Part shown: positions 20,439-33,708 of the stretch, piece by piece | Numbering within the stretch: the stretch's first letter is position 1 | Layout of the letters: every line of letters starts with the position of its first letter | DNA from: Nitrososphaerota archaeon | Lineage (GTDB): Archaea > Thermoproteota > Nitrososphaeria > Nitrososphaerales > Nitrosopumilaceae | Length of the DNA stretch: 36,878 nt | Direction of reading: 5' to 3' | Assembly (NCBI GenBank): GCA_028867595.1 | Contig: JAGWGB010000014.1 | Location: 1-36,878, forward strand | The notes under the pieces: model-generated | Databases searched by the model: none | The model's input: the letters and a program-made list of their open reading frames with translations, nothing else | What the model was told of the DNA's origin: nothing | Program-made: the position numbers and the translations under genes

Positions 20439-20459
20439 TTGAGATTATTTTTTCTTGCG

Positions 20460-20467
20460 TATTAAAG
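20460..20467 (-). promoter_or_regulatory. Probable TATA box of the cbiD operon
   Basis: On the minus strand this reads CTTTAATA, centred 25 bp upstream of the cbiD ATG, a typical distance for a leaderless archaeal promoter. The purine-rich GAG just upstream may be part of the BRE. The neighbouring mobile element starts close to this point, so its insertion may have replaced whatever lay upstream of the BRE. Confidence 0.5.
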
Positions 20468-20483
20468 CTCTGTTACATTGCCA

Positions 20484-20501
20484 GGTGATAATGACATTAC
20501 C
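20484..20501 (+). repeat. Left-end hairpin of the TnpB element
   Basis: Imperfect palindrome with stem GGTGAT paired to ATTACC (one G-T wobble) and loop AATGAC. A subterminal hairpin a few bases inside the end is what TnpA-type transposases recognise in IS200/IS605 elements. Confidence 0.45.
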
Positions 20502-20536
20502 AGTACTATAACTTTAACAAGAAAATACATCATCAG

Positions 20537-21760
20537 TTGAAGGCAATCAAGTCTGTCAGGCAATCATACGTTCCAGATCCACGTACTTTTGATTTTCTTG
20601 AAACTTTTCGAGATATGGTAAATCACTGTATCAGAACAGGACTGCAAAATAATGCATGGGCGTTAAAGCGATTATCAAAGTTGTCGTATCGTGAATTGAT
20701 CCAGTATGATATTCCTTCATACTACAAACTATGCGCAATATCAAAGGCTGCAGGTATATTATCAAACAGAAGACAATCCATCAAGCGAGGAATCAATACA
20801 AAAAATCCCCATCTGAAAAAACCAATACTGATATCATGTTATGGATTCAAGCTTGAAGGTGATGTTTTCAAGATACCTCTTGGAGGCAGAAAGTATTTTG
20901 ATATTCCATTGAACCATCACACAAGGGAAGTGATACATGGCAACGGGAATGATGCTACCTTCAAGATAAACTCCTTTGTTCTTACTGCAGGTGCTATATC
21001 AATATCGTATTCAAAAGATGTACCGGAAATACAATGTAACAGTACAGCAGGAATTGACAGAAATCTCAGAAATGTTACTGTAGGAGACTGCAGTCAAGTA
21101 GTGCAGTATGACATATCAAAAGCTGCTAGGATTGCAGAGAATACAAGATCCATAACATCGTCTTTCAAGCGAGATGATCACAGAATCAGAAAACAACTGT
21201 ACTCAAAATATGGCACCAGAAGAAAAAATCGGATAAATCAGTTATTGCACAAGATCTCACAGGATGTTGTATACAATGCTGCGCAAAACAAACACGCCCT
21301 AGTCTTTGAAGACATTAGACACATAAGAAAGATGTATCAGAAAGGCAACTGGCAAGGGAAAAAACATCGCGGTACAATGAACGGCTGGTCATTTTCTGAG
21401 ATCAAACGCCAGATAGAATACAAGTCAAAATGGAGAGGCATTCCAATAATCCAGTTATCAAGACAAGATACCAGAGGAACGTCAAGACTGTGTCCCAGAT
21501 GCGGAAAGAGACTCCAAGACAAAGGGGCATGGAATACACCTGACCATAACAGGGAGCTCTGGTGTGATACATGTCAGAGATGGCAGGATCGTGATGTAAT
21601 AGCAGTCATGAACCAATCTCTGCGAGGGCTGCCAAGGCTTGGCAGTTCTAAAGGTGATGCAGGTGAAGCAATGAGGGGGAATGTGGATAACGCACTGCCG
21701 CTAATCCTTAGAGTCGATGCATCAAAGTTACAGTTGATAGGTCATAACCCGTCAACGTAA
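20537..21760 (+). CDS. tnpB: TnpB RNA-guided nuclease of an IS200/IS605-type element
   Basis: A 407-aa TnpB with a split RuvC nuclease: Asp174 in AGIDRNLRNVTV, Glu258 in LVFEDIRHIRK and Asp353 in RDVIAVMN. A four-cysteine zinc finger (CPRC at 319-322, CDTC at 343-346) lies between the last two, preceded by the QDTRGTSRLCP segment typical of TnpB. The catalytic set is intact, so it could be active with an omega RNA made from its own 3' end. The start is TTG at 20537. The frame remains open for about 50 codons past the last RuvC motif, through the proposed guide-RNA scaffold, and stops only a few bases past the right-end hairpin, which is unusual. The Asn usual after RDV is Ile. Confidence 0.9.
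   Translation: MKAIKSVRQSYVPDPRTFDFLETFRDMVNHCIRTGLQNNAWALKRLSKLSYRELIQYDIPSYYKLCAISKAAGILSNRRQSIKRGINTKNPHLKKPILISCYGFKLEGDVFKIPLGGRKYFDIPLNHHTREVIHGNGNDATFKINSFVLTAGAISISYSKDVPEIQCNSTAGIDRNLRNVTVGDCSQVVQYDISKAARIAENTRSITSSFKRDDHRIRKQLYSKYGTRRKNRINQLLHKISQDVVYNAAQNKHALVFEDIRHIRKMYQKGNWQGKKHRGTMNGWSFSEIKRQIEYKSKWRGIPIIQLSRQDTRGTSRLCPRCGKRLQDKGAWNTPDHNRELWCDTCQRWQDRDVIAVMNQSLRGLPRLGSSKGDAGEAMRGNVDNALPLILRVDASKLQLIGHNPST
21626..21756 (+). ncRNA. Putative omega RNA scaffold at the tnpB 3' end
   Basis: In TnpB systems the guide RNA comes from the 3' end of tnpB and the right end of the element. Here a strong hairpin CTGCCAA-GGC-TTGGCAG (21629-21645, extendable with wobble pairs to 21626-21648) is followed by a 64-nt stretch (21665-21728) that aligns without gaps, 48 of 64 identical, to a decayed copy at 33374-33437. 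The region ends in the right-end hairpin. The guide would be the sequence beyond 21756. Both the exact 5' and 3' limits are inferred. Confidence 0.5.
21733..21756 (+). repeat. Right-end hairpin of the TnpB element
   Basis: Imperfect palindrome with outer stem GTTGA/TCAAC and inner stem GGT/ACC around CATA. It ends in TCAA(C), a cleavage motif of several IS200/IS605 members. Confidence 0.45.
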
Positions 21761-21784
21761 TAGAGCCCGTATTAATCTGTGTGG

Positions 21785-32615: not shown

Positions 32616-32897
32616 ATGTTAATACGGTACAACCACTCAGCATCTACGGGGTTGTTTGATGTATCAAGGAAGGTATTCCTTTCACAAAACTGCATTTCAG
32701 AGCAAGCTGTAAAAAAATATGTCATGAAACTTTTGGAAGAGCATCACATTCCAAAAGAAAACATACTTGATGACTCCAGGATGGATGCAGTCTTGACAGG
32801 AGATTATCTAATACGATGTATAGGTGGTACCATTGTTGTACACAAAATTGAGCTCTCACATGAGGGCTTTACCACAAAAATTATTGGCCGCATCTAG
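32616..32897 (+). CDS. Conserved-looking hypothetical protein, 93 aa
   Basis: A small soluble protein from ATG to TAG with alternating helix (AVKKYVMKLLEEHHIPKENILDDS) and strand (GDYLIRCIGGTIVVHKIELS) character. No family is recognised and no membrane segment or cysteine pair is seen. Its stop overlaps the stop of the convergent RHH gene by 4 bp. Confidence 0.6.
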   Translation: MLIRYNHSASTGLFDVSRKVFLSQNCISEQAVKKYVMKLLEEHHIPKENILDDSRMDAVLTGDYLIRCIGGTIVVHKIELSHEGFTTKIIGRI

Positions 32898-33079
32898 TTC
32901 CTTGACTTGCGCCTTTCACTTTTGTCATACTTTGCCAAAAAGTCCTTTACTATATCTACAATTATCTGGTTTCTGCTTGTATAGCCCATCTTGTACGAGT
33001 CTTGGGTCTTGAGAAACTCATCGAGCCTTTCTGCTAGGCCAACAGGGATATTTGCACTAACCCAGTCCTTTCTTGCCAT
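32894..33079 (-). CDS. Ribbon-helix-helix DNA-binding protein 1
   Basis: A 61-aa CopG/Arc-like protein: strand WVSANIPVGLAERLDEFL, then GYTSRNQIIVDIVKDFLAKY for the second helix, and a basic tail. Its ATG lies inside a perfect 22-bp palindrome (33077-33098), and a TATA-like TTAAAT sits about 26 bp upstream, so the transcript should be leaderless and the palindrome would block the start site when bound. Autoregulation is likely. No toxin partner is seen next to it. Confidence 0.8.
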   Translation of the reverse strand: MARKDWVSANIPVGLAERLDEFLKTQDSYKMGYTSRNQIIVDIVKDFLAKYDKSERRKSRN

Positions 33080-33098
33080 ACGGTAACTTTACCGTATG
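33077..33098. promoter_or_regulatory. Palindromic operator at the RHH1 start
   Basis: Perfect inverted repeat with half-sites CATACGGTAA and TTACCGTATG separated by CT. It includes the ATG of RHH1 on the minus strand. The half-site differs by one base from those of the operators in front of RHH2 (ATACAGTAA), with the same 2-bp spacer. Confidence 0.75.
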
Positions 33099-33233
33099 TC
33101 TTCATTTAAGCTTACTTTGATTGATTTTATCTAATTGATGTTCAAGCAACCATATGGTCATTACAACATACCCTTGTTCTTTTAAATGCAAAGATTCTAT
33201 ACATTGCCAATGTTTCCACCAACTTTCTTGTCC

Positions 33234-33404
33234 ATGAGGAACGGTTATCGGGAGTGGATGAGAAGCAACAATCTCTATTGGTGTAATATAGCCAGTTGTC
33301 ATGGTGAAGTAAGCTCTATGAACTTGGTAGAGCGGTGTGCAGTAGGTTTTGGCATACTAGAGGGCTCTCAGCTGAAGCAAGGAGGCGGAATATGGATAAC
33401 GTAA
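33234..33404 (+). pseudogene. Decayed tnpB C-terminal remnant
   Basis: The open frame here translates to a piece resembling the end of the TnpB at 20.5-21.8 kb: LYWCNIASCHGEVSSMN against LWCDTCQRWQDRDVIAVMN, with one cysteine pair broken and the last RuvC Asp lost (Glu). The N-terminal 300 or so residues are missing. The reading frame ends at TAA 33404, but DNA similarity to the intact element continues beyond it. The stretch from 33099 to 33233 holds no gene I can support; a 66-aa minus-strand ORF there looks like chance. Confidence 0.65.
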
Positions 33405-33458
33405 GGTCACTAATCCGAGGAGTCGATGAGGGCAAGTCTAATAAACCTGATTTATTAG
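33335..33458 (+). ncRNA. Possible retained omega RNA-like scaffold of the tnpB relic
   Basis: Bases 33374-33437 match 21665-21728 of the intact element at 48 of 64 positions without gaps. A hairpin GTGTGC/GCATAC (33335-33340 with 33352-33357) stands at the same distance upstream as the CTGCCAA/TTGGCAG hairpin of the intact copy, though its sequence differs, which suggests the structure was kept. It ends with a perfect 8-bp stem hairpin. Whether it is transcribed is unknown. Confidence 0.4.
33438..33458 (+). repeat. Hairpin at the presumed right end of the tnpB relic
   Basis: Perfect inverted repeat CTAATAAA-CCTGA-TTTATTAG. It takes the place of the right-end hairpin found at 21733-21756 in the intact element. 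It could also act as a transcription terminator for the short unit. Confidence 0.5.
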
Positions 33459-33479
33459 GCACAACCCTTTGATTAAATG

Positions 33480-33497
33480 TACAGTAAAATTACTGTA
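33480..33497. promoter_or_regulatory. Upstream palindromic operator of RHH2
   Basis: Perfect inverted repeat TACAGTAA-AA-TTACTGTA. It lies just upstream of the TATA-like TTTTATATT (33501-33509), where it would cover the BRE/TFB site. Same half-site and spacer as the operator at 33515-33534; centres are 36 bp apart. Confidence 0.7.
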
Positions 33498-33514: not shown

Positions 33515-33534
33515 ATACAGTAAACTTACTGTAT
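33515..33534. promoter_or_regulatory. Start-proximal palindromic operator of RHH2
   Basis: Perfect inverted repeat ATACAGTAA-AC-TTACTGTAT ending on the base before the RHH2 ATG. It would overlap the transcription start of a leaderless mRNA, matching the placement at RHH1. Confidence 0.75.
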
Positions 33535-33708
33535 ATGGGTAAGAAAGCCAAGGGGTTTACAACTGCCACACTCAAAGAACATGTCTTTAGGAAACTCAGA
33601 CAGCTGTCTGATCTTGAAAAGAGGACTGTCTCAAACGAGCTTGATATCATAGTTGATTTCTATCTGTCAAAGAACAACCTAAAACTGGAGGCGCCACAAA
33701 TTGTCTAA
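33535..33708 (+). CDS. Ribbon-helix-helix DNA-binding protein 2
   Basis: A 57-aa CopG-like protein: basic N-terminus GKKAKGF, strand TTATLKEHVFRKLRQLSDL and helix TVSNELDIIVDFYLSKN. Its promoter (TATA at 33501-33509, about 29 bp from the ATG) is bracketed by two palindromes matching each other and, with one base change, the one at RHH1. This is the clearest autoregulatory arrangement in the window. It overlaps the following secreted-protein gene by 8 bp, so both are under the same control. Confidence 0.8.
   Translation: MGKKAKGFTTATLKEHVFRKLRQLSDLEKRTVSNELDIIVDFYLSKNNLKLEAPQIV

Follow-up and report, generated by a model that had tools for sequence, protein, structure and literature searches.

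The window, the whole stretch of 36,878 nt analysed here, contains a short region related to the 3' end of a tnpB gene that lies on the same contig. This raises the question of whether a tnpB gene decayed in place or whether the region is a unit of its own that lost its protein and kept an RNA. The window was taken as a whole. It corresponds to contig C54 in the draft genome (1.68 Mb) of an ammonia-oxidising Nitrososphaerota archaeon; other contigs of this genome are referred to as C80, C90, C103, C106 and C137. The genus used for comparison was taken to be Nitrosotalea and comprised 37 genomes.

Extent of the element and its tnpB remnant

The relic was found to be part of a short inverted-repeat element flanked by a target-site duplication (TSD) (Table 1). 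The preliminary description had placed it at 33234-33458; the feature is real, but this extent was too narrow, the true unit being 33123-33466 between two 8-bp TSD copies. Its observations on the remnant itself were reproduced. The ungapped identity of 48/64 was recovered between 33365-33428 and the intact tnpB at 21656-21719, with a next-best ungapped 64-mer for the relic of 35/64 across the whole window and 33/64 on the reverse strand. BLASTN of the relic against the element gave E = 2e-12. The match runs across the stop codon (33402-33404) of the residual ORF 33186-33404, and the nuclease residues are gone: where intact relatives have the RuvC-III DRD (SMDRDVVASMN), the relic reads SCHGEVSSMN.

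Neither an intact TnpB, by which an OMEGA nuclease element is recognised, nor an IS6-family transposase was present within 33123-33466, and the tnpB remnant is frameshifted and has lost the RuvC-III motif. The element has the features of a MITE, with a length of 344 nt, no intact ORF, terminal inverted repeats (TIR), a TSD and a second copy on C90 with the same internal junction. A TATA-like box may provide a promoter in the left end. It is located ~25 nt upstream of the block common with the second copy, which starts at 33211.

Table 1. Features of the mini-element and of the intact tnpB element in the window.
Feature	Position	Strand	Evidence
Mini-element, 344 nt	33123..33466	+	Bounds from TSD and inverted repeats; flank alignment; second copy
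Left TSD CTTTGATT	33115..33122		8/8 identical to 33467-33474; single copy in empty sites elsewhere
Right TSD CTTTGATT, equal to nt 1-8 of the predicted guide	33467..33474		8/8 against left copy
TA preceding left TSD, putative TAM	33113-33114
Left terminal inverted repeat GATTTTATCTAATTGAT	33123..33139		Against reverse complement of right end: 11/17 by hand, 10/16 by script
Right end CACAACC (family consensus CAGAACC)	33460..33466	+	End comparison across related elements
TATA-like box TTTTAAAT, possible promoter	33180..33187	+	Direct sequence reading
Remnant of final ~85 tnpB codons, frameshifted, RuvC-III acidic residues lost	33211..33437	+	82% to second copy; alignment to 3' end of C80 tnpB
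Omega-RNA scaffold	33332..33466	+	Covariance-model match, 114.6 bits, E = 8.8e-27
Helix H1, 7/7 pairs	33334-33340 with 33352-33358	+	Covariation alignment
Long-range helix H2, 7/7 pairs	33364-33370 with 33427-33433	+	Covariation alignment
Helix H3, 3/4 pairs (terminal A-C mismatch)	33392-33395 with 33407-33410	+	Covariation alignment
Terminal hairpin H4 GUCUAAUAAA/UUUAUUAGGC, 10 bp, overlapping right inverted repeat	33436..33460	+	-8.6 kcal/mol, z = -5.0
Predicted guide CTTTGATTAAATGTACAGTA (putative role)	33467..33486	+	Identical to the G189 empty site
Intact tnpB element, 1302 nt, inverted repeats 12/16	20466..21767	+	TSD/TIR search; covariance model
Left TSD CGTATTAA of intact element, preceded by TG	20458..20465		TSD search
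Right TSD CGTATTAA of intact element	21768..21775		TSD search
Intact tnpB, 407 aa	20537..21760	+	PF07282 50.5 bits; NF040570 89.8 bits, below cut-off 100
Omega-RNA of intact element	21623-21767	+	116.7 bits

Second copy, insertion site and divergence

A search of the genome with the relic as query recovered a second short copy (G000:C90:2579-2807; element about 2488-2854), the TSD of which was not intact. Identity to the relic was 82% over 33211-33437 and 90% over 33301-33437. Both copies join the left end straight to the last ~85 tnpB codons. The same junction in both implies descent from one internally deleted ancestor, and the element therefore moved after protein loss.

Identity between the two ORF-less copies was ~53% in 33123-33210, 66% in 33211-33266 and 88% in 33267-33437, which agrees with the earlier suggestion that the RNA rather than the protein part is constrained. 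The comparison of 33211-33300 with 33301-33437 gave a Fisher value of 0.007. Changes in the residual frame were distributed 5/7/7 over the codon positions, with pN/pS 0.61, a pattern that does not look like strong protein selection. Outside the RNA part, the copies differed by 34-47%.

When joined with one TSD copy, the flanks of the relic aligned contiguously to six loci, distributed over five further genomes of the Nitrosotalea group. The empty site of G189 is exact; it carries TTACTTTGATTAAATGTACAGTAAT and reads ...TTACTTTGATT|AAATGTACAGTAAT. The exact TSD and the continuity of the joined flanks with empty sites elsewhere identify the relic as a clean insertion. It was found in one genome only and was absent from the five genomes having the locus. 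It is younger than the split from these genomes, which are 82-88% identical at the locus. Given a young insertion and 34-47% divergence outside the RNA part, most of this difference appears to have accumulated with the element already ORF-less and mobile. The ORF-less lineage would thus seem to have been mobile for long while its RNA part stayed alike. The main alternative for the conservation gradient is gene conversion between the two copies, which could be a partial cause.

Two ribbon-helix-helix (RHH)-like genes flank the element, at 32894-33079 on the minus strand and from 33538 on the plus strand. Each lies behind operator-like palindromes (33081-33096, ACGGTAACTTTACCGT; 33480-33497, TACAGTAAAATTACTGTA; 33519-33536, TACAGTAAACTTACTGTA). 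Those at 33081-33096 and 33480-33497 are largely kept in the empty-site genomes and are thus conserved without the insertion.

Omega-RNA scaffold

A covariance model was built from 23 aligned right ends, the relic among them. The upstream hairpin reported earlier at the same position with other base pairs (GGUGUGC/GCAUACU in the relic versus CUGCCAAG/CUUGGCAG in the intact element) covaries over the 23 copies, and the covariation analysis proposed with it was clear for helices H1-H3. Helices H1-H3, comprising 18 pairs, had 96.6% paired cells and double changes in 12/18 pairs, and 0/500 shuffles were as good; pairing fell to 33-63% when the helices were slid along the 23-copy alignment. The relic kept 17/18 pairs and the second copy 18/18; at several pairs, both bases differ from those of the intact elements. 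These double changes may predate protein loss. Since the split of the ORF-less copies, only two paired sites changed, with one pair kept and one broken, so that post-loss covariation in this two-copy lineage proves nothing alone. Minimum-energy folds of single omega-RNAs were not significant by themselves (z about -0.4 to -1.1); the case for structure rests on covariation. On this basis, a three-helix omega-RNA at the tnpB 3' end is strongly supported, and the relic carries the conserved structured RNA that characterises OMEGA systems at this position. An Rfam scan of the window returned only two tRNAs.

Terminal repeats and the IS6 family

Comparison of the 3' and 5' ends of related tnpB elements revealed TIRs of the type GGTTCTGT...ACAGAACC, a family within which the repeats of the relic are diverged (10/16). 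The inner part of the TIR varies from one element to the next, yet the two ends of a given element agree in it. At L014-L035, the inner TIR also forms the terminal hairpin of the RNA, with both ends changing together. A perfect 8-bp TSD together with a TIR of at least 10/16 was present in 20/74 omega-RNA loci versus 0/1454 mismatched controls. Locus L138 was dropped from the 20 as doubtful, and the remaining 19 tnpB-type elements were used further.

An IS6-family transposase was encoded in the same genome (C103:2043-3182), scoring 64 bits for PF13610 (cut-off 27) and 120.4 bits for NF033587 (cut-off 125). Its element (L074, G000:C103, 1054-3412) has ends GGAACTGTTAGG/GGTTCTGTTAAT of the GGTTCTGT type and the duplication GGATTGAA. 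In addition to the transposase, L074 contains other small ORFs; 8 bp beyond the element lies another GGTTCTGT end, as would result from two adjacent insertions. Eight IS6-transposase elements in the genus showed GG..CTG ends and exact 8-bp TSDs; several of these boundaries have weak repeats (9-11/16), and two may represent one orthologous insertion. The relic matches the IS6 type in its 8-bp TSD (8/8, with empty sites) and, through its tnpB family, in the GGTTCTGT-type repeats. Co-occurrence of IS6 transposase and omega-RNA among the genomes was 12/19 versus 7/18, a trend only. Judging from the ends and the target duplication, an IS6-type transposase is likely to have mobilised the element in trans.

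Other affiliations were rejected. The Y1 (HUH) transposase of IS200/IS605 (PF01797) was missing from the relic's genome and present in 3/37 genus genomes, and the relic has an 8-bp TSD and TIRs. Inverted repeats and target duplication also spoke against IS607.

Flank motif, predicted guide and candidate partner nuclease

The left TSD was preceded by T[A/G] in 18/19 tnpB-type elements, with A or G as the final base in 19/19, versus 0/8 IS6-transposase elements (Fisher p = 4e-6). The background frequency of TA and TG was 0.13. No position inside the TSD or in the right flank of the 19 elements was comparably conserved. The simplest reading of this rule is that T[A/G] is the TnpB TAM and that the guide starts at the target duplication, which is likely. 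With TA, the relic has the TAM-like motif on the left flank that is expected for an OMEGA omega-RNA. A comparison of the guide with genomic targets, as recommended in the preliminary description, pointed to the locus itself as the only 0-mismatch match in the genome and to no excess of others: 22 matches were found in total, two of them with 2 mismatches, versus 32 in a reversed-pattern control.

Five tnpB matches were present in the genome, located at 20537-21757 of the window, on C80 and C137, and on C90 and C106, where both are cut by contig ends. The TnpB 12 kb away had been suggested as the user of the RNA. It is not the best candidate, as its element has another end type (GGCTCTGTT...) and a TG flank. 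Elements L105 and L131 have ends like GGCTCTGTT and also a TG flank. The most likely partner in trans is the C80-type TnpB of the TA-flank subfamily, which is closer to the relic. This protein is intact with 390 aa, and solved structures include TnpB and Cas12f chains to which it is similar in sequence. Where family members in other genomes had named matches, these were mostly Candidatus Nitrosotalea or Thaumarchaeota, on which the choice of genus was based.

Proposed mechanism and alternative explanations

The relic is mobile, with IS6-type ends, an 8-bp TSD and a complete omega-RNA scaffold at its right end. We read 33123-33466 as a non-autonomous element that arose from a tnpB element by internal deletion and is served in trans jointly by an IS6-type transposase and a TnpB, with a probability of roughly 0.62. 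Its omega-RNA, presumably expressed, could probably serve a TnpB in trans and target the element's own empty site. An IS6-family DDE transposase would move the mini-element in trans. A transcript from the left end would be trimmed to scaffold and guide, the latter beginning at the target duplication (CTTTGATTAAATG...). The TnpB of another locus, likeliest of the C80 type, would bind this RNA and cut the unoccupied allele beside the TA motif (predicted target TA-CTTTGATTAAATGTACAG), and repair of the cut allele would copy the mini-element back in. The occupied locus would escape cutting: at the left junction, the match after TA is limited to the 8-nt duplication, and at the right junction CC stands before CTTTGATT in place of T[A/G]. 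One broken H3 pair and the diverged end CACAACC in place of CAGAACC are counterpoints to this reading.

The broken pair would also suit a passive mini-element, in which the omega-RNA part was spared by the deletion, the transposase requires the right end and the RNA has no present function. We consider this unlikely, although ends and target duplication would account for the presence of the relic without any RNA function. Deletion derivatives that keep 5' tnpB parts without omega-RNA also exist; more of the 3'-retaining remnants are suggested, with searches for the two kinds that differ in sensitivity. A transposase, however, would need the terminal repeats only and not 200 nt, whereas the ORF-less copies remained most alike over ~170 nt of RNA part and kept nearly all pairs. 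Across 22 TnpB-less omega-RNA loci, 75/106 changed pairs were still paired versus 33 expected, a number inflated by an alignment fitted to the structure and drawn from a set biased by discovery through the retained RNA.

Decay of a tnpB in place with the RNA kept by selection, the view taken at first, shares with the non-autonomous element a real homology to the tnpB 3' end. The exact TSD, the terminal repeats, five genomes with an empty locus and the internal deletion shared by a second copy indicate arrival in short form, which makes it highly improbable. Equally little speaks for the regulatory role that had also been proposed, considered here as TldR-like control of the neighbouring RHH gene by a recruited guide or short RNA. 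The predicted guide does reach the operator-like palindrome at 33480-33497 before the gene RHH2, but guides in this element family always equal whatever flanks the insertion, and the palindromes persist in genomes lacking it. None of the five genomes having the locus shares the insertion, while a TldR-type RNA would be conserved in relatives, and no nuclease-dead TnpB homologue was noted near the locus. A small protein gene of 46-65 aa made from the tnpB remnant is the least probable explanation. Both copies keep an open frame of 46 codons, and its pN/pS is below 1, but not far below, with few synonymous sites and changes spread over all codon positions; in the second copy the 65-codon reading is broken, and no Pfam match was obtained for the remnant.

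Comparison with known systems

Like the OMEGA systems of IS200/IS605 and IS607 (TnpB with omega-RNA, e.g. ISDra2 TnpB), the element has a scaffold that overlaps the tnpB 3' end and extends to the right end, a guide formed by the right flank and a left-flank motif resembling a TAM. Unlike them, it has true inverted repeats and an 8-bp TSD, resides in a genome without Y1 and, in the relic, lacks TnpB. With the IS6 family it has in common the GGTTCTGT-type ends and the 8-bp TSD, both of which also occur in the IS6-transposase elements of this genus; it differs in the absence of a transposase inside, in the tnpB and omega-RNA cargo and in the T[A/G] flank rule. PATEs are short non-autonomous IS200/IS605 derivatives without ORF that may carry omega-RNAs. 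Their ends are palindromic and of the IS605 type, unlike the IS6-type inverted repeats found here. IS1341-type elements consist of tnpB only, and their ends were described as hairpins like those of IS605 (PMC9956272). The present family resembles them in a single tnpB between element ends without a transposase gene but has inverted repeats and a target duplication instead of hairpin ends.

The best parallel is provided by Fanzors on inverted-repeat transposons, with a TnpB relative as cargo and a terminal repeat within the scaffold. Fanzor1 of the ascovirus SfAV resides on an inverted-repeat DNA transposon without its own transposase, and the terminal repeat is part of the guide-RNA scaffold (PMC10711439). 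A Fanzor of Ectocarpus is located on an IS4-type transposon with an 8-bp TSD (PMC3627910). The Nitrosotalea elements differ in being archaeal and in their IS6-type ends. Furthermore, the duplication belongs to the scaffold in Fanzor1 (PMC10711439), whereas the flank motif outside the duplication suggests that here the guide starts at the duplication. A literature search that covered few subscription journals yielded no report of a TnpB from prokaryotes on IS6-type ends.

A wider reading is tentative and stands at a little under even odds: in Nitrosotalea and relatives, TnpB would have left IS605/IS607 for IS6-type DDE transposons, and protein-less guide-RNA elements would home in trans, with a two-base T[A/G] TAM, a guide starting from the 8-bp TSD and the right TIR within the omega-RNA. 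If true, a prokaryotic TnpB can switch its transposon vehicle to a DDE element with target duplications, as eukaryotic Fanzors did, and the guide-RNA half can spread on its own, leaving the nuclease half behind. The elements would then be a clean and testable example of omega-RNAs acting in trans and of selection at the RNA level once the protein is lost, and would suggest a new, small family of compact nucleases whose TAM has two bases.

Distribution of omega-RNA loci

The covariance-model search detected 88 loci in 19/37 genus genomes, and matches were present in 31/250 genomes of the family. Viral contigs scanned with the H1 motif gave no match. The 21-base H1 motif recurred exactly on a contig labelled Bacteroides (L164, JAAVDU010000003.1), by contamination, transfer or chance. 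Two omega-RNA-like loci were located in genomes without any TnpB match in the protein search: L094 (G203:C56:19777-19908) kept 17/18 pairs and L095 (G208:C24:178259-178394) only 7/18. L126, L094 and L124, which are TnpB-less or nearly so, showed a near-perfect H1 hairpin of other sequence (GGGUUGCA/UGCAACCC type).
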